Below, one piece after another: positions 30,387 through 41,122 of a stretch of 64,000 nucleotides of DNA. The stretch is from Thiomicrospira sp. WB1 (GTDB taxonomy: Bacteria > Pseudomonadota > Gammaproteobacteria > Thiomicrospirales > Thiomicrospiraceae), in assembly GCF_001507535.1 (NCBI RefSeq), contig NZ_LQBN01000001.1:558001-622000 (forward strand), in the 5' to 3' direction. A model generated the notes under the pieces. That model did not search any database. It saw only the letters and a program-made list of their open reading frames with translations, and was not told where the DNA came from. Numbering within the stretch: the first letter of the stretch is position 1; each line of letters starts with the position of its first letter. The position numbers and the translations under genes were made by a program.

Positions 30387-31724
30387 TTAAAAGTTCATGC
30401 GCAGAGACAACGTGTACCCAATTTGAGAGTGGGTTACTTCGTGTTCGGTGCTGTCTACTGGATTTCCATCATAACTTCCGTCTGACATCATGTCAGAAAT
30501 GGTACCGGTGTTAACCTTTTTGTTAACCTCGGCGGCATAAACAATGGCAGCGTCAAGCGCTAGGTTTTTGGTAATGTTATAACCGCCACCAAAGGTAAAG
30601 TGTTGTTCAACCACAGCTGGGAAAAAGTGATTGTTGAAAAGGTTGACTGCTTGGTTTTGATAGGCGGTCATCGGGTTGTTGTCACTCATGACATCAATAG
30701 GGTCTTCGGCATAGTTGTAACCAACACCGAGCCAGTAGTTGTTTGCTGTGTATTTGAAACCAGCTCCGAATACATTTTGGTCATCCCAATTAAAATCCTT
30801 GTATCCGTTGGCGTCACTCCATTTAATCTGTTTTGCGTCAGCCGTGAACATCATGTTGCCCATTGTGTAAGCGGCACCGATTTTAATTTCCGCGGGTTGC
30901 TCAAGATTGTCCGAGGTGATTGTATTCGTTTGTGGGCGCGCGTTGCATCCAGTTGGACCAACGCCAAAACCACACGCCGCACCGGTGATTTGATCGTCAT
31001 ATTCCATATCAATAGCAGATTGGTAAGCCAAAGCAACGGTAAATTCAGGTGTAATGTCAAAATGACCACCGATGTTAAACCCATATCCCAGGTCAGAAGA
31101 CATGCCGTTACCAAAATTAGAAACTTGGTCATCTGTTGGGTCCATAGGTGTGCCGTTGTTGTTACGGGAATGATAGTTAATGTCTAATGCGCCGTATTGG
31201 ATCACAGGAGCAAAACCAATCCCCCAGTTCTCGTTGTTGTAGGCGAGAGAAGGCGCGAATTTCATTAACTGAAGATTGCTATACCCGTTGAACAACCCGG
31301 TACCGTCCATTTCTCCGCCATTATCTCGGTAGTCTGTCCCCATCCCTGCGGAGCCGAAGATGCCGAGGCCAAATGTCCAGTTGTCATTAAGGCGTGTTGA
31401 GAGAGAGACCTCAGGAATGATGTTTGTATCAGCCTCACTGGTTTGTGATGCTGTTTGACCCGGCATTGAAGCGACATTGGTTTCGGCTTTCACATCCGGT
31501 TTAAACAAAGTCCCGCCAATGGCAAACTCGGTGCCTTGGCCTTTGCCGAGCAGAGAAGGGTTGGTCAGGGCGTTTTCGGAGCCGAAGAAAGCGGCGGTGC
31601 CAGTGCCGCCCAGTGCGCGTGACTGTGCGCCCAGACCGATCAGGTTGTCACCGTTGGTTGCCAGAACAGGGGTTGAAACCATGGCTGTGGTGGCCACAGC
31701 GAGTGCGATTCTTGTTAACTTCAT
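30387..31724 (-). CDS. FadL/TodX-family outer-membrane porin (OMPP1)
   Basis: 445 residues with a signal peptide (MKLTRIALAVATTAMVSTPVLA), then the FadL hatch region TNGDNLIGLGAQSRALGGTGTAAFFGSENALTNP. A long beta-barrel with alternating strands ends in the outer-membrane signature SLRMNF with terminal Phe. FadL relatives carry long-chain fatty acids or other hydrophobic compounds across the outer membrane; the substrate here is unknown. The ~620-bp region upstream holds an FNR-like box and two copies of a 16-bp element also found before the RND efflux operon, hinting at shared control. A solid terminator follows. Confidence 0.9.
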   Translation of the reverse strand: MKLTRIALAVATTAMVSTPVLATNGDNLIGLGAQSRALGGTGTAAFFGSENALTNPSLLGKGQGTEFAIGGTLFKPDVKAETNVASMPGQTASQTSEADTNIIPEVSLSTRLNDNWTFGLGIFGSAGMGTDYRDNGGEMDGTGLFNGYSNLQLMKFAPSLAYNNENWGIGFAPVIQYGALDINYHSRNNNGTPMDPTDDQVSNFGNGMSSDLGYGFNIGGHFDITPEFTVALAYQSAIDMEYDDQITGAACGFGVGPTGCNARPQTNTITSDNLEQPAEIKIGAAYTMGNMMFTADAKQIKWSDANGYKDFNWDDQNVFGAGFKYTANNYWLGVGYNYAEDPIDVMSDNNPMTAYQNQAVNLFNNHFFPAVVEQHFTFGGGYNITKNLALDAAIVYAAEVNKKVNTGTISDMMSDGSYDGNPVDSTEHEVTHSQIGYTLSLRMNF

Positions 31725-31812
31725 GCGTTCATTCTCTCTTGTTGTTGTGATCAGGTTGGTTTTCCTGGGTTGTGTGCAGCATGCGCCACAACCTTTTCAG
31801 AAAACACTATGC

Positions 31813-31828
31813 ATAAGCGTTTTCTGAT
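31813..31828 (-). promoter_or_regulatory. 16-bp element, copy 1 (fadL side)
   Basis: The minus strand reads ATCAGAAAACGCTTAT. An oppositely oriented half, TCAGAAAACACTAT (31797-31810), adjoins it, making a rough inverted repeat about a TATGCATA centre. ~90 bp upstream of the FadL start. Confidence 0.55.
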
Positions 31829-31899
31829 TTAATAATCAAAAAAATTTTATGATTGATTAGTGGGATTAATTCGTACGGGACTGGGGATGTGTTCGAAAT

Positions 31900-31913
31900 T
31901 TGATCCAAGTCAA
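31900..31913. promoter_or_regulatory. FNR/Anr-type box, TTGATCCAAGTCAA
   Basis: One mismatch to TTGAT-N4-ATCAA, 182 bp upstream of the FadL-like gene. The same TTGAT-N4-GTCAA form recurs before the DUF302 gene. Confidence 0.5.
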
Positions 31914-31944
31914 AAAATAACTTAAGTTCTTGATATTAAATATA

Positions 31945-31960
31945 ATAAGCGTTTTCTAAT
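31945..31960 (-). promoter_or_regulatory. 16-bp element, copy 2 (fadL side)
   Basis: The minus strand reads ATTAGAAAACGCTTAT. A shorter similar stretch, ATAGAACACTTAT, directly adjoins it at 31961-31973. Confidence 0.55.
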
Positions 31961-32068
31961 ATAAGTGTTCTATGAAATAAGGAATTGTCTTTATTGAAGT
32001 CAAAACTTTTTTATAACTAAGCAGAGTTTTTTTATTAAGAGTTTCTAATATTATTAAATACTGTACTT

Positions 32069-32096
32069 GGTGAGCGGTGAGCGGTGAGCGGTGAGC
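32069..32096. repeat. Heptamer tandem repeat (GGTGAGC)4
   Basis: Four exact tandem copies of GGTGAGC in non-coding DNA, 17 bp before a palindrome copy. Confidence 0.9.
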
Positions 32097-32112
32097 AATG
32101 AATGCAAACATT

Positions 32113-32124
32113 ACCAGGCCTGGT
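32113..32124. repeat. Dispersed palindrome ACCAGGCCTGGT, copy 7
   Basis: Perfect copy in the non-coding region downstream of the DUF302 gene; right flank gaaaag. Confidence 0.95.
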
Positions 32125-32347
32125 GAAAAGGCAAGCAGATTGGCGTTTGAGTGTCGTCCTGGTTCAAAGTGTCTCCGGTAGGCCTTATGCCAAGGCTTTT
32201 GTCATTCTTAGGCTTTTTCTTCGCCCGTGAAAGGTCTGAAAGATCATTATTTTCGCAGGAATGCTGGTGAGGGCAGTGGGGGAAGCGGGGCGTTTGAAGG
32301 CGATGCTCTAGATCAGAGGGGCGAGGTTTAGACATTCATTCGTGCAC

Positions 32348-32372
32348 AAAAAAACCCGCGCAAGGCGGGTTT
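32348..32372 (-). terminator. Rho-independent terminator of the DUF302 gene
   Basis: Stem AAACCCGC / GCGGGTTT with a 5-nt loop, and a T-run on the minus strand. Confidence 0.92.
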
Positions 32373-32396
32373 CTAATCAGAGGATCGGGAGGGAGC

Positions 32397-32966
32397 TTAC
32401 CAAGCGCCGGAAGCACCTTTTTCCATCATTTTCCAAACCGTGTTACGCACATGCATGGTTTCTTCTTTCAGTTCTGGTGGCAGTTTTTTGCCCATTTTGA
32501 CCATCATGTCCATGTTCATGCTGTAGAGATGCAGACCATCTTCTTCTTCAACGATGGTGATACGACAAGGCAGGAAACCACCCATCGCCGGTGAAAAGTC
32601 GATCATTTTACGAGCGGTTTCAGGGTTACAGAAAGACATAACGTGAATGCGCTTGGATTCGATGCCGCGGGCTTTCAGTTCTTCGGACAGGGGCAGTACG
32701 CCGACGTTCATCAGACCGGTGCCCATGGCTGCATTATTGATGGCGTCAACCACGTCAACGAATTCAACGCCTTCTTCTACTTTCATTTCCCACATGGTGG
32801 CGTCGGCGATATCGCCTTCGGCTTCAACCCATTTGTCCCAGACTTCGAAAAAAGTATCGCTCGCGCCGTCATTCAGGTTGCCCATGGCGTTGATGGTGCC
32901 ACACCCGGAAAGCAGGGCGATGCTGCCGGCCACAAAAGCGGTTTTGAACAGTGTCATCAGTTTCAT
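32397..32966 (-). CDS. DUF302 lipoprotein
   Basis: 189 residues from MKLMTLFKTAF, with a lipoprotein signal ending LLSGC (lipidated Cys ~20). A DUF302 domain occupies most of the mature protein (RIHVMSFCNPETARKMIDFSPAMGGFLPCRITIVEEEDGLHLYSMN). DUF302 proteins are small periplasmic or soluble proteins, common in sulfur oxidisers, with no settled biochemical role. Start ATG 32966 is chosen because GGAGAA lies 9 bp upstream; the ATG at 32981 overlaps that site. Upstream are an FNR-like box and a strong hairpin, so oxygen- or redox-linked control is plausible. Confidence 0.85.
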   Translation of the reverse strand: MKLMTLFKTAFVAGSIALLSGCGTINAMGNLNDGASDTFFEVWDKWVEAEGDIADATMWEMKVEEGVEFVDVVDAINNAAMGTGLMNVGVLPLSEELKARGIESKRIHVMSFCNPETARKMIDFSPAMGGFLPCRITIVEEEDGLHLYSMNMDMMVKMGKKLPPELKEETMHVRNTVWKMMEKGASGAW

Positions 32967-32998
32967 TGAGTCGTTCTCCATTGGTTTGCGTTCGTTCT

Positions 32999-33031
32999 CA
33001 CTTGCCCACAACCGGATGGCTGTGGCAAGTG
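32999..33031 (-). promoter_or_regulatory. Inverted repeat in the DUF302 gene leader
   Basis: Perfect 8-bp arms CACTTGCC / GGCAAGTG (32999-33006, 33024-33031), extended by ACA/TGT after a one-base bulge. It lies between the FNR-like box and the ribosome site. Operator or 5' UTR hairpin. Confidence 0.55.
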
Positions 33032-33035
33032 TTTT

Positions 33036-33049
33036 TTGATGTAAGTCAA
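33036..33049. promoter_or_regulatory. FNR/Anr-type box, TTGATGTAAGTCAA
   Basis: One mismatch to TTGAT-N4-ATCAA, centred ~77 bp upstream of the DUF302 start. Confidence 0.55.
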
Positions 33050-33181
33050 TTTTCAGAACCAAGATTACTCGGGTGCCGAATGGGGCGAAAATCAAATTTT
33101 TTGTCGGCAAAATAACTTTCTTTTATGGACATAACGACTTGCTAATATTAAGAGATAACGAAACCCTGAAATAAGTGTCTG

Positions 33182-34318
33182 CTAAATTAGTTGAAAGCCT
33201 AGTTCTATCAATAGCTTATTTAAATTTTTATCGGGTGTTTTTGCCACTCGGTGTTGTGACCACTCTCGCCGCACCGGGTAGTGTCGACGGTAATATTCAT
33301 ATTTTTTATGCGTGCCCTGAATCTCTTTGGCCCGTATGGCCTGATCGTCGTCCAAAGGGTTGTAACATTGCTTCAAAAGCTGCCATAGCGTCTTCGCTAA
33401 TTGAGGAGCGGGTTCAATTTGAAGCGGTGCGGGAGGGAGGGGTAATTCTGCCTGCCAATGTTGCTGCGGGGGGATTTGCCAGTGCTGGCAAAGCTGTTCG
33501 TATACCATCTCACTGCCCTTAATTTTAGCGTCCAGGGCATGACCCGCGATGTGAGGGGTGGCAAGGGTGGCTTTCTGATAGAGGTCAGCCCGGATTTCCG
33601 GTTCATTTTCCCAGCAATCAATGAGATTTTCGTTCATGGGCGCCGTCACCCAGGCCGCTTCATCCACAATGCCACCGCGTGCGGCATTGATGAGCACCTG
33701 GTTCGGACTGAGCCTTGCCAGATGCGAATGCGCCAGCAGATGATACGTTGGCCATTTTCCTTCATGGGATAAGGGTGTGTGCAGCGAGATAATGTCCGCT
33801 TTCAGTGCTTCGTCCAGTTCACAGAAGCCGTCTGAGCCTTCGCGCGCGGCACGAGGCGGGTCATTTAAAAGGCAGGTCAGACCGACGGCTTCGGCCAGTG
33901 TCTGCAGGCGTTTGCCGACGTGCCCGACGCCAATGATGCCGAGTGTTAGCCTGGTCAGGTTCCACTCATTTTGTGCCGCGAGGCGAATAATGTTGGTTAA
34001 AACGTATTCGGCGACGGAGTTGGCGTTGCAGCCCTGTGAAGAATAGAAGGGAATGTTCTGTTGTTTTAACCAGGCCTGGTCAATGTGGTCCAGGCCGACC
34101 ACGGTGGAGCCGACAAAGCTAACGCCGCTGTCTTGTAGCAGGTCAGCATTGACCTGCGTTCGGGAGCGCACAATTAATGCGTCGGCGTTTGCAACGTCGG
34201 ACGGGCGGATGGCTTTGCCGGGTCGTAATTTGACCTGGCCGAGGTGAGAGAACATTGCTTCGCCGAAGGGAATGGCGTCATCAATGATCAGTGTTCGTTC
34301 TTGCATTGTCTGCTCCAT
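33182..34318 (-). CDS. pdxB: Erythronate-4-phosphate dehydrogenase
   Basis: An NAD-dependent D-2-hydroxyacid dehydrogenase of the DXP-dependent pyridoxal-phosphate pathway, oxidising 4-phosphoerythronate. 378 residues. It has the catalytic-domain SRTQV segment, the family hallmark GCNANSVAEYV, a Rossmann motif GIIGVGHVGKRL, INAARGGIVDE, and the catalytic His in TPHIAGHALDAK. The C-terminal ~90-residue PdxB dimerisation extension is present, which separates it from SerA. A palindrome copy at 34069 encodes DQAW. Stop at 33182; its promoter is in the 91 bp before the divergent hydrolase. Confidence 0.95.
   Translation of the reverse strand: MEQTMQERTLIIDDAIPFGEAMFSHLGQVKLRPGKAIRPSDVANADALIVRSRTQVNADLLQDSGVSFVGSTVVGLDHIDQAWLKQQNIPFYSSQGCNANSVAEYVLTNIIRLAAQNEWNLTRLTLGIIGVGHVGKRLQTLAEAVGLTCLLNDPPRAAREGSDGFCELDEALKADIISLHTPLSHEGKWPTYHLLAHSHLARLSPNQVLINAARGGIVDEAAWVTAPMNENLIDCWENEPEIRADLYQKATLATPHIAGHALDAKIKGSEMVYEQLCQHWQIPPQQHWQAELPLPPAPLQIEPAPQLAKTLWQLLKQCYNPLDDDQAIRAKEIQGTHKKYEYYRRHYPVRREWSQHRVAKTPDKNLNKLLIELGFQLI
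34069..34080. repeat. Dispersed palindrome ACCAGGCCTGGT, copy 8 (intragenic)
   Basis: Perfect copy inside pdxB, encoding DQAW; flanks tttta and caatg. Confidence 0.95.
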
Positions 34319-34442
34319 GGCTCTTTCAATGAGACCATTGTAGCGGTCGAGCGGGTTTCAGGCGACTGTTTGGCAGAGTCTTTCGAATCGAGGCGGGGAC
34401 TCGGGTAAAATGGCCGGCATTACCTCATTGACCATGGAAATT

Positions 34443-35096
34443 ATGCCTGCATCATCCACTAGTCTTGTCATTCCGGGGGAAGTTGGCCCCTTGCAAGCCC
34501 GTCTCACCCGGCCCGGTGCCTCTCGGCTGGCAGAGTCGAGTCCCTCCGTTCATGACACAGCCTGGGTGGTGTTGAGTCATCCGCATCCTCAGTACGGGGG
34601 CACCATGGATAATAAAGTCGTGACCACGCTGGAACGAACGTTCCAGCAGTTGGGTTGGGGAACACTGGCCTACAATTTCCGTGGGGTGCAGGAATCTGCC
34701 GGCGATTATGATGAAGGGCTGGGTGAACAATACGATCTGGCTGCCGTGGTCGAGTGGTTGCGGGCCACCGAATCCGTGTCGCACTTGACCCTGGCCGGGT
34801 TTTCATTTGGCAGTTACATCAGCGTGGCACAGGCCGATGCCTTGAACGCGGATCAATTGTGTACGGTGGCACCACCGGTAAGCCTGTATGATTTGAGTGG
34901 GTTTCATCCCAAGGCGGAGTGGTTGTTGATTCAGGGCGGGCAGGATGAAGTGGTCGACCCCAAGGAAGTGCTGGACTGGGCCCTGGCTCGGGAGCAGGTG
35001 CCGGATCTGGTCTGGCGGGCGCAGGCCAGTCATTTTTTTCATCGCCAGTTGGTCTGGATGAAACAGTTGCTGTTGGGGCATTATGGTTCGCCTTGA
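34443..35096 (+). CDS. Alpha/beta hydrolase (COG2945-type)
   Basis: ~217 residues from MPASSTSLVIPGEVGPLQ. Signature VVLSHPHPQYGGTMDNKVVTTL followed by AYNFRGVQESAGDYDEGLGE is typical of this hydrolase group. A plausible triad is Ser in GFSFGSY, Asp in QGGQDEVVD and His in ASHFFHRQL. No signal peptide; cytoplasmic. The natural substrate is unknown; relatives are listed as esterase- or dipeptidyl-peptidase-like. The start is uncertain: in-frame ATGs at 34410, 34434 and 34443 all lack a strong ribosome site, and the last best fits family length. Confidence 0.8.
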   Translation: MPASSTSLVIPGEVGPLQARLTRPGASRLAESSPSVHDTAWVVLSHPHPQYGGTMDNKVVTTLERTFQQLGWGTLAYNFRGVQESAGDYDEGLGEQYDLAAVVEWLRATESVSHLTLAGFSFGSYISVAQADALNADQLCTVAPPVSLYDLSGFHPKAEWLLIQGGQDEVVDPKEVLDWALAREQVPDLVWRAQASHFFHRQLVWMKQLLLGHYGSP

Positions 35097-35129
35097 TGTC
35101 ACAATGACTAAGCCGGACAGCACTGGCAT

Positions 35130-35145
35130 ATTAGAGAAAACTTAT
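35130..35145 (+). promoter_or_regulatory. 16-bp element, copy 3 (efflux operon)
   Basis: ATTAGAGAAAACTTAT, similar to the elements before the FadL-like gene, 136 bp upstream of the TolC-like start. Confidence 0.45.
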
Positions 35146-35160
35146 TTATAATCCTCGCTT

Positions 35161-35176
35161 ATTAGAAAATGCTTAT
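35161..35176 (+). promoter_or_regulatory. 16-bp element, copy 4 (efflux operon)
   Basis: ATTAGAAAATGCTTAT, one base different from the 31945 copy. It starts exactly 31 bp after copy 3, about three helical turns, so both face the same side of the helix. Confidence 0.55.
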
Positions 35177-35265
35177 ATGCTAATGTGTTTGTCATTTCAG
35201 GGCCTTATCACTAATGTTTGGTGAATAAGGCCCGGGCAGGCCATCCAGGCAAAAAGGATGAAAGT

Positions 35266-36681
35266 ATGAAATCAGTAAACGGCTTACATCGATTTATGCG
35301 CCGACTGTCGCCTGTGGCGATGGCCGTGGGGTTAATCAGTGCTCAGGGCATGGCCAGCGCCAATCCGGTCACGTTGGATTTTGAAGCCTGCGTGGAGACC
35401 GCACTGGGCAAAAACCCGGAGATGACGGTCAGTCAACAACGGATTGTTCAGGCCGAGTCCGCTCTGGCTGAGGCCGAAGCCAGCCGCATGCCTCAGATTA
35501 CTGCTTCCCTGACCGGGACCCGTTCCAATGATGCGATGAATGTGTTTGGCATGAAACTGGGTCAGCGGCAGGCGACATTTGCAGATTTTGGCTTTGCGGA
35601 TTTTGATTCGACTAACCCTAATCTCCTAAGTGTTGAGCCTGACGATTTAAACCATCCTGGTGCGCATAATAATTTCAATAGCCGTTTGGAAGTGAAGCTG
35701 CCGGTTTGGAATGGCGGAAAAATCGGCAGTTATGAAGATCAGGCCCAAGCCATGATCGCCGCAGCGCGCCAGGGTGATGAGGCCACGCAACAGTACCTCA
35801 CCTTTAATGTCTACAAAGCCTATGAAGGCGTGCACACGGCGCGGGCCTTTATTGATGTCGCCAAGCAAGCGATGGAAGCGGCGCAGGCGTATGTGAACAC
35901 CACTGAAAACTTGGTCGAGCAGGGCATTGTGGTGCGCTCCGAGCTGTTGAGTGCCAACGTGCATTTATCAGAGGCGCAAACGCATTATGAGCAGGCGTTG
36001 ATGGAAGAGCAGATTGCGCTGGACAATCTGAAAATGCTGATGGCCATGGATGAAAACGCGCAGATTGAGATTGGGGCGCGTCAGGATATTACATTGCCGG
36101 AGCACACACCGGATTCATTGAGCCAGCAGGCCATGACCGCCAATCCGCAACTGGAAGCGTTGCGCGCGCAGACCGAAGCCAAACGAGCGGCCATTGCCGC
36201 CAGTGAAGCCGACAAATACCCAAGCTTTAATCTGATGGCGCGCGGGGATGCCAATGATGAAAACCTTGGTTTTGACAGCACCTCCTACACCGTGGCCGGG
36301 GTGGTTTCTTGGAAGCTGACCGATTTTGGCGTGACCAGCAATCGGGTCAGCCGCGCGCGCGCGGAAGCCGAAGAGGCCAAGGCGGCACTGCAATCCAAAA
36401 CCAATCAAACCCGTTTGGCCGTGCGCAAAGCCTGGCGCATGCTCAAAGTGGCTGAAAAACGCGTGGTATCCAATGAGTTGGCCGTGGCCCAGGCCGAAGA
36501 GGCCCAACGTTTGATTATGAAACGCTACAAGGGCGGCATTGCCACCATGACCGAAGTGCTGGCCAATCAGGCGCAGCTGGATAAGGCGCGTGCCGATCTG
36601 GTCAAATCTCAATACGAAAAGAACATTCAAAAAGCCAAGCTGCGTTTGGAAACCGGCGCAATGAGCTTGGCTCAGCTTTAA
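35266..36681 (+). CDS. TolC-family outer-membrane efflux protein
   Basis: ~471 residues from MKSVNGLHRF (AAAAGGATG upstream). Signal peptide ends near GMASA. Two repeated long-helix regions of the OEP family follow (LDFEACVETALGKNPEMTVSQQRI and, in the second half, RAEAEEAKAALQSKTNQTRLAVRKAW), with coiled-coil heptads and the YKGGIATMTEVLANQAQLDKARADLVKSQ end. It would form the trimeric channel through the outer membrane. First gene of the efflux operon; the membrane-fusion lipoprotein starts 31 bp later. Preceded by two 16-bp elements. Confidence 0.93.
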   Translation: MKSVNGLHRFMRRLSPVAMAVGLISAQGMASANPVTLDFEACVETALGKNPEMTVSQQRIVQAESALAEAEASRMPQITASLTGTRSNDAMNVFGMKLGQRQATFADFGFADFDSTNPNLLSVEPDDLNHPGAHNNFNSRLEVKLPVWNGGKIGSYEDQAQAMIAAARQGDEATQQYLTFNVYKAYEGVHTARAFIDVAKQAMEAAQAYVNTTENLVEQGIVVRSELLSANVHLSEAQTHYEQALMEEQIALDNLKMLMAMDENAQIEIGARQDITLPEHTPDSLSQQAMTANPQLEALRAQTEAKRAAIAASEADKYPSFNLMARGDANDENLGFDSTSYTVAGVVSWKLTDFGVTSNRVSRARAEAEEAKAALQSKTNQTRLAVRKAWRMLKVAEKRVVSNELAVAQAEEAQRLIMKRYKGGIATMTEVLANQAQLDKARADLVKSQYEKNIQKAKLRLETGAMSLAQL

Positions 36682-36712: not shown

Positions 36713-37816
36713 ATGAAAATCAACGCGTATTCTATGAAAACCCCATTGCTTGTTGCCTTATTGACGCTGGGGCTGACGGGGTGTGGTGAGTCAACCAATC
36801 CGGAAACCGATCCGGTCAATGTGCAAACCATTGATGCGCCTGTGGCATCGGTTGAATTGGGATCCATTCCCTTGCAGTCGGTGGTGCCCGGTTCCGTGGT
36901 CCCGGACCAGAAAGCGCGCATTGCGTCGCGTTTGATGGGCTACATTAAAGACCTGGACGTGAAAGTCGGTGATCGCGTGGACGCGGGGGATCTGCTGTTT
37001 TCGATTGATTCCAATGATGTGAGTGCGCAGATTACCCAGGCCAAGTCGGGCTACCAGCAGGCCAAAGCCGCACTGGAAGATGCCAAACTGGATTATGACC
37101 GGTTTAAAAAGCTCTATGCAGAAGACTCGGTGTCCAAGCAGCAGTTTGACAAAATCAGTCTGCAGTACCGCGTCGCGCAGGAAAATCTGGCCGCGGCTCG
37201 TTCTGCCTACAATCAGGCGCAATCCCAGCTGAACTATGTCAACGTCAAGGCGCCGTTTGATGGCGTGGTGGTTGAGAAAATGGCCGTTGCCGGTGACCTG
37301 GCTGCGCCGGGTAATCCGATTCTGGTGCTGGAAAATCTGCAATCGTTGAGTGTTCAGACGCAGGTGTCGGAAGACTTGTTTGCGGTGTTGCGCCTGGGTG
37401 ACAAGGCCGAAATCAAACTGGATGGCAAGCTTGCGCCCATTGAGGGGGAAGTTTATACATTGGTGAGTGCGGCTGATCCCAAGTCGCGCACCCACACAGT
37501 CAAACTCAGCCTGCCTAAAGGCATTGGTAATGTGAACAGCGGGACTTTTGCGCGCGTTGGGTTTACCCATGGGGAACGTCAGGCCATGATGGTGCCACGC
37601 ACCGCCGTGGTGAACCGTTCGGGCATTGAAGGCGTGTTTGTGGTCTCCGACGGCAAGGCCCGTTTCCATATGGTACGTCTGGGCGAAGTCATTGGTGATC
37701 AGGTCGAGGTCAAATCCGGTCTTCAGCTGGGGGACACCATTGTCGTGGACAATAATATGAGCATCCTCAATGGGGACCGCATCGCAACCGACGACGCACA
37801 AGGCAAGGGGGCGTAA
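36713..37816 (+). CDS. RND periplasmic adaptor (membrane-fusion lipoprotein)
   Basis: ~367 residues. Lipoprotein signal MKTPLLVALLTLGLTGC (lipobox LTGC). A biotinyl-lipoyl-like segment (VGDRVDAGDLLFSID) and an alpha-helical hairpin (~residues 100-165) follow. The matching half-lipoyl NYVNVKAPFDGVVVEK, a beta-barrel and the C-terminal membrane-proximal domain (MMVPRTAVVNRSGIEGVFVV) complete the MFP fold. It bridges the RND pump and the TolC-like channel. ATG 36713 is preferred, with CAGGTGAG upstream. Its stop is immediately followed by the pump start. Confidence 0.94.
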   Translation: MKINAYSMKTPLLVALLTLGLTGCGESTNPETDPVNVQTIDAPVASVELGSIPLQSVVPGSVVPDQKARIASRLMGYIKDLDVKVGDRVDAGDLLFSIDSNDVSAQITQAKSGYQQAKAALEDAKLDYDRFKKLYAEDSVSKQQFDKISLQYRVAQENLAAARSAYNQAQSQLNYVNVKAPFDGVVVEKMAVAGDLAAPGNPILVLENLQSLSVQTQVSEDLFAVLRLGDKAEIKLDGKLAPIEGEVYTLVSAADPKSRTHTVKLSLPKGIGNVNSGTFARVGFTHGERQAMMVPRTAVVNRSGIEGVFVVSDGKARFHMVRLGEVIGDQVEVKSGLQLGDTIVVDNNMSILNGDRIATDDAQGKGA

Positions 37817-40800
37817 ATGAGCGCGGACAAGCTTAATTCAGCCGGGAAACTGGCCAAGGCGTTTATTCACTCGAAGATCACCATGATGATCATGGTGGCG
37901 GTGACGCTGGCTGGGGTGCTGGCATTGATGGTCACGCCACGTGAATACAATCCGCAAATTGTGGTCCCTGCGGCCAACATCATGGTGCCGAAAGCCGGGG
38001 CGACCCCGGAAGAAGTTCAGAACATGGTGGTCAAACCCCTTGAGAGCATTATGAACTCGGTCTCGGGCGTCAAACACACCTTTGGGTATGCCAGCAACGA
38101 TTTCGGGGTGGTAACGGTTCAGTTTGATGTGGGCGAAAACCAGGAAGACAGTCTGGTCAAGCTCTATAACCAGCTGATGCAGAACATGGACCGCATGCCA
38201 CCGGATACTCAGGAACCGATCGTCAAACCCATCAATGTGGACGATGTGCCGATTATGACACTGGCGCTCACCTCCACGGAGCTGTCCGGCTTTGACCTGC
38301 GTGACGTTTCTCTCAAGGTGGTGGAAGAAATCCGCAAAGTGCCCGGCGTCAGCTTTACCGATGTGGTCGGTGGCAAAAAACGGGCGGTCAATGTGTGGCT
38401 GGATGCCCGCAAAATTGCCTCAGTGGGCATGTCACTGCAAACCATCAGCGACATGCTAAAGGGCAATAATGTGTCCCTGCCAGCGGGCAGTCTGGTGGAG
38501 CAGAATCAGCACTACCCGGTGCGTCTGAACGGGTATCTGGGCAATGCCGAAGAAGTGGGTGAGATCATTATCGGCACTCACCAGGGTCGCCCGATTTACC
38601 TGAAAGACATTGCCCGCATTGAAGACGGCCCGATGGAAGAAGACGTCAGCACCCGAATCGGTTTCGGTTCGGCGGCCGGGCAAAACATTCGCGGCGAACA
38701 GCCTGCGGTGACCATTTCGCTGGCCAAAAAACCCGGCACCAATGCGGTGACCGTGGCCAATGCCGTACTGGATAAGGTTGATCTGCTGAAAAAGAGCGTG
38801 ATTCCTGCCAACGTCGACGTGGTGGTGACACGCGACGATGGCAAAAAAGCCAATGCGGCCGTCAACATTTTGATGGAACACTTAGGCATTGCTGTGGGCT
38901 CGGTGATCGTGATTCTGGTCCTGTTCCTGGGCTGGCGTGAAGCGGGCATTGTGACATTGACCGTGCCATTGATTCTGTTTGTGGTGCTGTTTGTGGGCTA
39001 TGTGTCCGGCCAGAGCATCAACCGGATCACCCTGTTTGCATTGATTCTGTCGCTGGGGTTATTGGTGGATGCCGCGATTGTGGTGATCGAAAACATACAC
39101 CGACACATACACGAAGGGTTTGATCCCAAGAATTTTGATGAATTATTGATTAAAGCCACCAATGAAATCGGGAACCCTACTAATGTCGCGACGTTTGCGG
39201 TCATACTGGCCTTTATCCCGATGATTTTTGTGACTGGGATGATGGGGCCGTTTATGGCACCGATCCCGTTTAACGTGCCGGTGGCCATGATTGCGTCCCT
39301 GGTGATCGCTTATATGCTGGTGCCTTACCTCTCGTACCGTTTGTTGGGGAATAAGGCCATCAAGGAGATGCAGTCCCGAGAAAGCACGGAGACGCATCAT
39401 GTCACCGAACCGGATTGGATGCAGAAACTGTATGAAAAATCCATTGTGCCCATGCTGGAAAGTCGCACCAAGCGCAATGTGTTTTTGTTTGTGGTGTTGA
39501 TGGCACTGTTTGCGGCCATGATTCAGCCTGCGCTGCAGTTTATGCGGGATGATGGCATGAACAATCCCCTGCACCCGGCTGGCGTGGAAGTGAAGATGCT
39601 GCCGTATGACAACACCAGCACCTTCCTGGTTCAGGTGGACATGCCGGAAGGCACGGCGCTCGAGAGCACCGATATTGTGGTCCGTCGTGTCAATGAGGTG
39701 ATTGCCGATTTGCCGCATGTGACCGATTACAGTGTTTTTCTGGGCAAACCGGCACCGATTGACTTTGCCGCACTGGTGCGCGGTGACTTGATCAAACAGG
39801 GCGTGAACTTTGCCCAAATTCGGGTGAACCTGACCGATAAAACCCAACGGGATTTATCGTCGCACGAACTGGTACAAATGCTCGACGAGCGATTGAGCTC
39901 GGTCAAAAAGGTTTTCCCTGGGGCCAACATCAAGCTGTATGAAACCCCGCCAGGGCCGCCGGTGACCACGCAGATTCTGGCCGAACTCTACGGGCCGGAT
40001 TACGACAAGCTCCGTCAGGCGGCGCTGGAAATCACGGATAAGATGCATGATGTCTATGGTCTGACGAATATTGATAACAGTGTCACCGCTAACAGCGTCA
40101 GCTATCAGATCAATATCGACCGCACTCAGGCTAATCTGTTGGGTGTGGTGCCGGCTCAGGTTGCCAAGATGTTGCGCGATTACATTAATGGCTATGAGCT
40201 GGGCTACATGCACCTTGATAACGTTCGAGAGCCGGTCAATATTGTGGTGCGTTTACCGCGCTCTGAACGGACCGTGCCGGAACAGTTGATGTCACTGAAT
40301 GTGCAATCGCGTTCCGGTGCGTCCGTGCCGGTCGCCTCCTTTGCCGACATCAAGGAAGTCACCAAGGCCAAGCCGATCATCGGACGTGACCAGCATCAGA
40401 TGGTGATGGTCGGGGGTGAGCTGCTGCGCTCCAGCCCGGTTTATGCCGTTCTGACCCTGGATGGCATGCTGGACGGCGTCAAACTGCCGGAATCCGACGT
40501 CACCTTCCATACCGCCAATCTGGGCTTTGTGGAAGCCGAGCCGAAAGACGTGATGGAGTATTCCCTGCTCTGGGGCGGTGAAATGCGCCTGACACTCGAT
40601 GTGTTCCGCGATATGGGCAGCGCCTTCATTGTGGCGATTATCTTCATTTATCTGGTGCTGGTGGGTTACTACCGCTCGTTTATGATGCCGTTGATTGTGA
40701 TGGGGGCGATCCCGTTGACCATGATTGGGGTGTTTCCGGGCCACTGGATCATGGGACAGGCCTTTACCGCCACGTCCATGATCGGGGTGATTGCACTGGC

Positions 40801-41122
40801 CGGGATCGTGGTGCGTAACTCTTTGCTGTTGATCGACTTCATCCTTGAGTATCGGGCCGAAGGCAAGACACTGAAAGAAGCGGTGATTGAAGCTGGTAAG
40901 GTTCGATTCCGGCCGATTTTGCTGACGGCGTTGGCGATCATGTTCGGGTCCATGATCATGATCACCGATCCGGTCTTTGGAGGTCTGGCGATCTCTCTGA
41001 TCTTTGGTACCTTCTCCGCCACGGTGTTGACACTGCTGGTGATTCCATTGCTGTACTTTATCTGGCAATGGCACGGTGGCGTCAAATACACCGAAGGTGG
41101 CATGAGCAAGCCAGGCAGCTGA
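37817..41122 (+). CDS. RND family efflux permease
   Basis: 1101 residues, twelve membrane segments and two large periplasmic loops, as in AcrB/MexB-type pumps but slightly longer. The start codon directly follows the adaptor stop. Segment 4 reads GLLVDAAIVVIENI where AcrB has the proton-relay pair Asp407-Asp408; only the first Asp is kept. Segment 10 reads GIVVRNSLLLIDF, with Arg at the position of AcrB Lys940. It may therefore use an altered proton relay or belong to a distinct RND subfamily. The substrate cannot be read from sequence; the CusA-type metal-relay pattern is not evident. A strong terminator follows. Confidence 0.92.
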   Translation: MSADKLNSAGKLAKAFIHSKITMMIMVAVTLAGVLALMVTPREYNPQIVVPAANIMVPKAGATPEEVQNMVVKPLESIMNSVSGVKHTFGYASNDFGVVTVQFDVGENQEDSLVKLYNQLMQNMDRMPPDTQEPIVKPINVDDVPIMTLALTSTELSGFDLRDVSLKVVEEIRKVPGVSFTDVVGGKKRAVNVWLDARKIASVGMSLQTISDMLKGNNVSLPAGSLVEQNQHYPVRLNGYLGNAEEVGEIIIGTHQGRPIYLKDIARIEDGPMEEDVSTRIGFGSAAGQNIRGEQPAVTISLAKKPGTNAVTVANAVLDKVDLLKKSVIPANVDVVVTRDDGKKANAAVNILMEHLGIAVGSVIVILVLFLGWREAGIVTLTVPLILFVVLFVGYVSGQSINRITLFALILSLGLLVDAAIVVIENIHRHIHEGFDPKNFDELLIKATNEIGNPTNVATFAVILAFIPMIFVTGMMGPFMAPIPFNVPVAMIASLVIAYMLVPYLSYRLLGNKAIKEMQSRESTETHHVTEPDWMQKLYEKSIVPMLESRTKRNVFLFVVLMALFAAMIQPALQFMRDDGMNNPLHPAGVEVKMLPYDNTSTFLVQVDMPEGTALESTDIVVRRVNEVIADLPHVTDYSVFLGKPAPIDFAALVRGDLIKQGVNFAQIRVNLTDKTQRDLSSHELVQMLDERLSSVKKVFPGANIKLYETPPGPPVTTQILAELYGPDYDKLRQAALEITDKMHDVYGLTNIDNSVTANSVSYQINIDRTQANLLGVVPAQVAKMLRDYINGYELGYMHLDNVREPVNIVVRLPRSERTVPEQLMSLNVQSRSGASVPVASFADIKEVTKAKPIIGRDQHQMVMVGGELLRSSPVYAVLTLDGMLDGVKLPESDVTFHTANLGFVEAEPKDVMEYSLLWGGEMRLTLDVFRDMGSAFIVAIIFIYLVLVGYYRSFMMPLIVMGAIPLTMIGVFPGHWIMGQAFTATSMIGVIALAGIVVRNSLLLIDFILEYRAEGKTLKEAVIEAGKVRFRPILLTALAIMFGSMIMITDPVFGGLAISLIFGTFSATVLTLLVIPLLYFIWQWHGGVKYTEGGMSKPGS

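Follow-up and report, generated by a model that had tools for sequence, protein, structure and literature searches.

Results

The window analysed here, a stretch of 64,000 nucleotides from Thiomicrospira sp. WB1 (contig NZ_LQBN01000001.1, positions 558,001 to 622,000), carries a short repeated element before two envelope-transport units. One unit is a gene for an outer-membrane porin of the FadL/TodX family (30387-31724, minus strand; Pfam Toluene_X, PF03349, 1e-31), near which lies a gene for a DUF302 protein (32397-32966, minus strand; Pfam DUF302, 3e-13). The other is an operon on the plus strand for a TolC-like outer-membrane efflux protein (35266-36681; Pfam OEP, 3e-53), an HlyD/RND periplasmic adaptor (36713-37816; above the cut-off of TIGR01730, RND_mfp) and an RND transporter (37817-41122; Pfam ACR_tran, 3e-161). 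An earlier reading of the window, made from its sequence alone, had recognised the FadL-like, TolC-like and RND efflux genes, and the Pfam matches bear it out. It had proposed that a 16-bp element shared by both units places them under one regulator coordinating the entry and export of hydrophobic compounds. It had also remarked that no regulator gene is adjacent; indeed, nothing regulator-like occurs among the neighbouring open reading frames, and the candidate described below lies on another contig.

A pattern search of the window for the 16-mer, ATTAGAAAACGCTTAT, with up to three mismatches returned four matches, at the very positions first reported: 31945-31960 (exact) and 31813-31828 (one mismatch) on the minus strand of the FadL side, and 35161-35176 (one mismatch) and 35130-35145 (three mismatches) on the plus strand of the TolC side. 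Shuffled sequences predict 0.23 matches, and none of 100 shuffles reached four. When related promoters are read side by side, the 16-mer appears as a genuine but incomplete unit: it is part of an inverted repeat of 18-20 bp, TATWAG-N6-CTWATA with A/T flanks, which reaches one base past the 16-mer at either end. Allowing one mismatch, this dyad occurs exactly four times in the window, against 0.06 expected (31944-31961, 32033-32050, 35129-35146 and 35160-35177), that is, twice before FadL, twice before TolC-HlyD-RND and nowhere else.

On the TolC side, the predicted operator O2 (35160-35177, plus strand) is an exact dyad, TATTAGAAAATGCTTATA, which covers the predicted transcription start and is retained as the second TolC copy in most relatives. 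The putative operator O1 (35129-35146, plus strand; TATTAGAGAAAACTTATT, one mismatch) lies 31 bp from it. This spacing, correctly given in the sequence-only reading, is seen in a 23-nucleotide direct repeat (35123-35145 and 35154-35176). On the FadL side, the predicted operator is the minus-strand dyad at 31944-31961 (TATTAGAAAACGCTTATT, one mismatch), accompanied by a weak tandem copy at 31961-31980, 16 bp away. The further upstream dyad at 32033-32050 (minus strand; TATTAGAAACTCTTAATA, one mismatch) had been overlooked, as had two weak copies upstream of the DUF302 gene, one at 33130-33147 (minus strand, two mismatches) and one at 33171-33185 (three mismatches to a 15-mer). Of the four sites originally listed, that at 31813-31828 matches the dyad least well (three mismatches), yet it is an arm in an inverted repeat of 31 bp, TCAGAAAAC...GTTTTCTGA (repeat 31797-31827, feature 31797-31828, minus strand). 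The FadL-DUF302 intergenic region also holds a tandem GGTGAGC repeat of about four units (32069-32098).

The genome to which the window belongs (G000; 2.28 Mb, six contigs) was compared with 34 further genomes of its family (35 in all), most of which retain the order FadL-DUF302-PdxB-hydrolase-TolC-HlyD-RND. Family dyads were counted at up to one mismatch, and expectations for promoters were taken from shuffled sequence. Upstream of TolC we found 53 sites, distributed over 30 of 33 genomes, where 0.40 were expected; upstream of FadL the count was 15 (0.30 expected) and upstream of the DUF302 gene 14 (0.10 expected; 12 of 30 genomes), the DUF302 dyads being stronger in relatives than in this genome. 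Control regions upstream of the PdxB, ABH hydrolase, HlyD, RND and NAD-epimerase genes of the family genomes contained no dyad. Over the full length of the 35 genomes there are 125 exact dyads, against 19 occurrences of the reversed pattern. One might suspect chance similarity among AT-rich promoters, or a composition shared by -10 and UP elements, given the AT-richness of the sites and their overlap with promoter elements, and since the copy before the arsR gene discussed below overlaps a conserved -10. The excess in the window and at the TolC promoter and the five empty controls speak against such an origin, whose probability we regard as negligible; together the window, promoter and genome counts refute it. 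The sequence-only reading had named two outcomes that would dispose of the element, a frequency matching random AT-rich DNA and a lack of conservation in related strains; the element is far commoner than random, and the sites are conserved. We hold with great confidence that the shared element is genuine and has the look of a functional site.

Near the RND operon, the sigma-70 consensus is best matched by CTGGCA-N18-TATAAT (35123-35152, plus strand), with agreement at 10 of 12 positions, which taken alone is weak evidence, as shuffles yield similar numbers of matches. The relation of this predicted promoter to the dyads is precise: O1 exactly fills the spacer between -35 and -10, and O2 starts eight bases past the -10, over the expected start point. 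At the same place, the relative G008 has TTGACA-TATTAGCAAATGATTA-TATAAT (N16) around the dyad, and the co-location of promoter and dyad at TolC is kept in relatives. Judged by its geometry, this is the predicted layout of a repressor with two operators three helical turns apart.

The genes that follow the dyad elsewhere point to sulfur metabolism. In this genome, it precedes a periplasmic rhodanese gene (C1:500693, locus L158; exact dyad; Pfam Rhodanese, 2e-11), soxC for sulfite dehydrogenase (C4:209174, L181; one mismatch; TIGR04555, 608 bits against a cut-off of 420) and a DUF4395 membrane-protein gene (C1:72191; one mismatch). Exact dyads precede soxB in relatives (L165, L285, L296, L301, L303 and L318) and in another family (L171); the products at L165 and L171 score above the cut-off of the SoxB model TIGR04486, and that at L285 is a fragment just under it. 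Among relatives, exact dyads also stand before soxY (L305; TIGR04488, above cut-off) and before genes for persulfide-dioxygenase-like (L155, L156 and L297), SQR-like (L289 and L322), rhodanese (L288, L293, L298 and L313) and DUF4395-like proteins (L286 and L290). Some of these genes were named by sequence similarity rather than by a curated cut-off. Single relatives also have exact dyads before a cbb3 oxidase gene (ccoN-like), ccoG, a RuBisCO large-subunit-like gene and a membrane-protein gene (L153, L160, L310 and L314).

These downstream genes bear directly on the notion of a regulator of fatty-acid or solvent entry and export. FadL/TodX-like porins and RND pumps are both classically tied to hydrophobic compounds, which favors the notion; however, the dyad precedes soxB, soxC, soxY and SQR-like, persulfide-dioxygenase, rhodanese and DUF302 genes, and no fatty-acid gene was found among the dyad-bearing promoters examined. 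Moreover, the porin scores only 43 bits against the fatty-acid FadL equivalog NF007988 (cut-off 585). The RND protein reaches 476 and 373 bits against the multidrug models NF033617 and NF000282 (cut-off 1250), so that with Pfam ACR_tran membership alone its substrate is not assignable, and neither functional name should be assumed for porin or pump. We therefore consider the hydrophobic-compound explanation very unlikely. The paired elements do favor the other half of the original proposal, namely a regulator common to the FadL and RND units.

The best candidate for this regulator is an ArsR-family protein encoded at C2:1125-1433, on a contig other than that of the window and unlinked to the window targets. 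Membership in the ArsR/SmtB family is indicated by NF033788 (HTH_metalloreg; 79 bits, cut-off 55), and the Gallionella orthologue matches Pfam HTH_5. The closest solved structures in PDB are HlyU, BigR, YgaV and NolR. Cys34 and Cys100 are invariant in an alignment of 10 proteins and align with the cysteines of HlyU, BigR and YgaV. Two-cysteine ArsR repressors (SqrR, SoxR/sHdrR, BigR, HlyU and YgaV) are known to be released from DNA once their cysteines have become bridged by sulfane sulfur. All genomes of the family keep the candidate, only the incomplete genome G028 being in doubt; other ArsR genes of this genome (C3:203906 and C1:12899) encode proteins 28-32% identical to it. A near-copy of the 16-mer precedes its gene (C2:1498-1515). 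Outside the family, orthologues occupy a conserved neighbourhood (L123-L129), beside rhodanese and grxC/secB/gpsA genes and divergent from gpmI-envC-ctpA.

The connection between regulator and dyad becomes physical in other genomes. HlyD-RND operons of other families, with RND proteins 37-45% identical to this one, carry the dyad 45-65 bp before HlyD; it is present in 24 of 73 HlyD promoters of named genomes, where the remaining sequence of these loci predicts about 0.3, a result that again argues against chance. At the Gallionella-like loci L223, L226, L231 and L236, HlyD-RND is immediately preceded by an ArsR gene, and the dyad occupies the space between them. The same arrangement is found at L214 with a dyad at two mismatches, and the ArsR proteins of all these loci are 50-58% identical to the candidate. 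L122 has a dyad between divergent ArsR and HlyD-RND genes, and at L146 a BigR-like/SQR operon and a divergent RND gene of MMPL type are set apart by two tandem dyads. Overall, 34 loci have an ArsR-type gene upstream of HlyD, and one has such a gene downstream of RND. A close ArsR orthologue is encoded in 22 of 24 dyad-bearing genomes, as compared to 1 of 23 without the dyad (Fisher, 4e-10).

It could be argued that a different regulator recognises the same geometry, be it of CRP/FNR type with 5-6-5 half-sites or an efflux regulator of TetR/MarR type, and that the association with ArsR is indirect, both marking sulfur oxidisers. The half-site spacing of WTTAG-N6-CTAAW is typical of CRP-type sites, and the co-occurrence of ArsR and dyad is phylogenetically clustered. 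On the tree of RND proteins, four changes suffice to account for the presence of ArsR, leaving two to four independent contrasts; the dyad agrees with ArsR in nearly all of these, yet significance is out of reach, and with so few independent changes the co-occurrence is supporting rather than decisive. Two dyad-bearing genomes (L217 and L218) have no close ArsR orthologue; in L204 the orthologue is present, but no dyad can be recognised. Against a different regulator, the ArsR gene is joined to dyad and HlyD-RND in separate lineages (Gallionella-like, L214 and L122), and the BigR-like/SQR locus L146 tells the same way. The only TetR-like regulator seen in an RND operon (L117), which we had considered as a candidate, has a promoter devoid of the dyad. 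Furthermore, the 16-mer, written as ATTAG-AAAACGCTT-AT, fits exactly the operator consensus of NolR, (A/T)TTAG-N9-A(T/A) (PMC12445080, PMC8960804), and NolR is itself a protein of the ArsR family. On balance, a different regulator appears improbable. We consider it likely that the regulator is an ArsR-type sulfur sensor and that the elements are operators of the two-cysteine, BigR/SqrR/HlyU/YgaV-type sulfane-sulfur-responsive repressor predicted at C2:1125-1433.

The clustered co-occurrence and the discordant loci just mentioned weigh against this assignment to the ArsR repressor, and they are joined by several other observations. The dyad in the arsR promoter is poor (two mismatches) and shares bases with a conserved -10; relatives keep no more of it than the half TTAGAAT, which is the -10 itself, and this weakening led us to rely on operon linkage and co-occurrence in place of the arsR promoter as the chief link. 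The candidate scores 65 bits against the BigR equivalog NF040642 (cut-off 155) and hence is not called BigR. The FadL dyads lie approximately 90-330 bp from the start codon, a search for a consensus promoter near them found none, and the FadL dyad is kept at one mismatch in only 10 of 25 genomes. At two mismatches the dyad shows no enrichment in this genome (73 copies against 141 of the reversed pattern), for which reason only near-exact copies are used as evidence. No dyad was found within 300 bp of soxB in this genome, and the gene was dropped as a target, implying that regulon membership varies. Lastly, exact dyads also occur before the trigger factor gene, in a convergent cysS/slt gap and at several odd places, which we take as background or unexplained.

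The exact dyad in the convergent cysS/slt-like gap is kept in four genomes (L150 2543 in G009, L151 2503 in G010, L152 2564 in G002 and L159 2527 in G000). No promoter is expected there, and the sequence is perhaps part of a terminator or has been kept by chance.

This genome has other repeats as well. A perfect 12-bp palindrome, ACCAGGCCTGGT, which resembles cyanobacterial HIP1, is highly iterated, with 12 copies in the window against 0 expected (745, 5688, 7188, 11437, 20720, 30303, 32113, 34069, 41217, 49533, 56568 and 61474) and 400 in the 2.28-Mb genome (reversed control, 0). Its distribution in the family is patchy: 660 copies in G020, 515 in G005, 289 in G014, 93-181 in G002, G003, G006, G009, G010 and G016, and none in G001, G004, G007, G011, G013 and others. 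Finally, TATACGGTATAGCGTATA is present in three copies with 28-bp spacing (G000:C1:327593-327666).

Discussion

The finding of the dyad before sox, SQR-like, persulfide-dioxygenase, rhodanese and DUF302 genes, combined with a candidate regulator of the sulfane-sulfur ArsR type, makes reduced sulfur the more likely common cue and leaves the coordination of hydrophobic-compound entry and export unsupported. The FadL porin and the RND pump probably belong to a sulfur-oxidation programme and not to a general fatty-acid or solvent response.

From the features observed in the DNA and in the candidate protein, we infer binding and repression relieved by sulfane sulfur. The reduced ArsR dimer would bind TATWAG-N6-CTWATA; at the tolC-hlyD-RND promoter one dimer would occupy the spacer of the promoter and another, three turns away, would cover the start point, thereby blocking polymerase. 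Upstream of fadL and the DUF302 gene there are comparable sites. Exposure to sulfide, thiosulfate or elemental sulfur would raise cellular sulfane sulfur, Cys34 and Cys100 would become bridged, and the repressor would leave the DNA. Porin, DUF302 protein and pump would then be made along with sulfur-oxidation functions, which here may include SoxC and the periplasmic rhodanese and, in relatives, also SoxB, SoxY, SQR-like proteins and persulfide dioxygenase.

These properties are reminiscent of SqrR, SoxR/sHdrR of Hyphomicrobium, BigR, HlyU and YgaV, all of which share with the candidate the ArsR winged helix and cysteines in the alpha-2 and C-terminal helices. According to a 2025 survey, two-cysteine ArsR genes neighbour sqr, sox, pdo, rhd and RND genes (PMC12423496); genes of the sqr, sox, pdo and rhodanese kinds are among the predicted targets here, and RND genes are again neighbours. 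DUF302 genes have been found within sox clusters of chemolithoautotrophs (PMC5037610). The paired sites at TolC recall the two shifted bands given by Hyphomicrobium SoxR at soxXA/soxYZB (PMC10451225). In contrast to the sulfane-sulfur ArsR group, the regulator here is unlinked to its main predicted targets, the operator is TATWAG-N6-CTWATA, and the predicted regulon also takes in a FadL-type porin and a DUF302 gene; the HlyU site has another sequence, TAATTCAGACTAAATTA (PMC4330345). As in the BigR/Blh operon of Xylella, Agrobacterium and Acinetobacter, where an ArsR repressor controls a persulfide dioxygenase, genes for Blh-like dioxygenases follow the dyad in G001, G011 and G022; however, the window has no bigR-blh operon, and the predicted regulon chiefly concerns sulfur oxidation and envelope transport. 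The operator likeness to rhizobial NolR extends to the protein, where the invariant Gln54 corresponds to the A/T-reading Gln56 of NolR (PMC8960804) in an equal-length alignment (query 10-99, chain 12-101). Unlike the candidate, NolR is without cysteines; it regulates nodulation genes, presumably in response to a different signal. Beside the known ArsR sulfur sensors, what is new, as far as predicted sites allow, is thus that the regulator is unlinked, that the dyad is defined and comes as two operators, and that the regulon extends to a FadL-type porin and a DUF302 gene.

A hydrophobic substrate for the FadL protein is still conceivable, in the form of elemental sulfur; a literature search on FadL and elemental sulfur found nothing bearing on S0 uptake. 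One could imagine, as a tentative and rather doubtful extension, that FadL, DUF302 and TolC-HlyD-RND make up an envelope circuit for zero-valent sulfur, in which elemental sulfur or polysulfide enters through FadL and surplus or toxic sulfane-sulfur compounds leave through the RND pump, both under one persulfide-sensing repressor. If this were true, chemolithoautotrophs would own dedicated routes for S0 import and overflow.

The present analysis corrects an annotation trap, as porin and pump genes of this kind would otherwise be read as functions for fatty-acid uptake and multidrug efflux. It predicts the regulon and the precise operator of a sulfur-responsive repressor in gammaproteobacterial sulfur chemolithoautotrophs; the published experiments that we found on such regulators in sulfur oxidisers are alphaproteobacterial. 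By placing a FadL-type porin, a DUF302 protein and an RND pump in this putative regulon, it makes the passage of poorly soluble sulfur across the outer membrane, and the export of reactive sulfur, amenable to experimental test.

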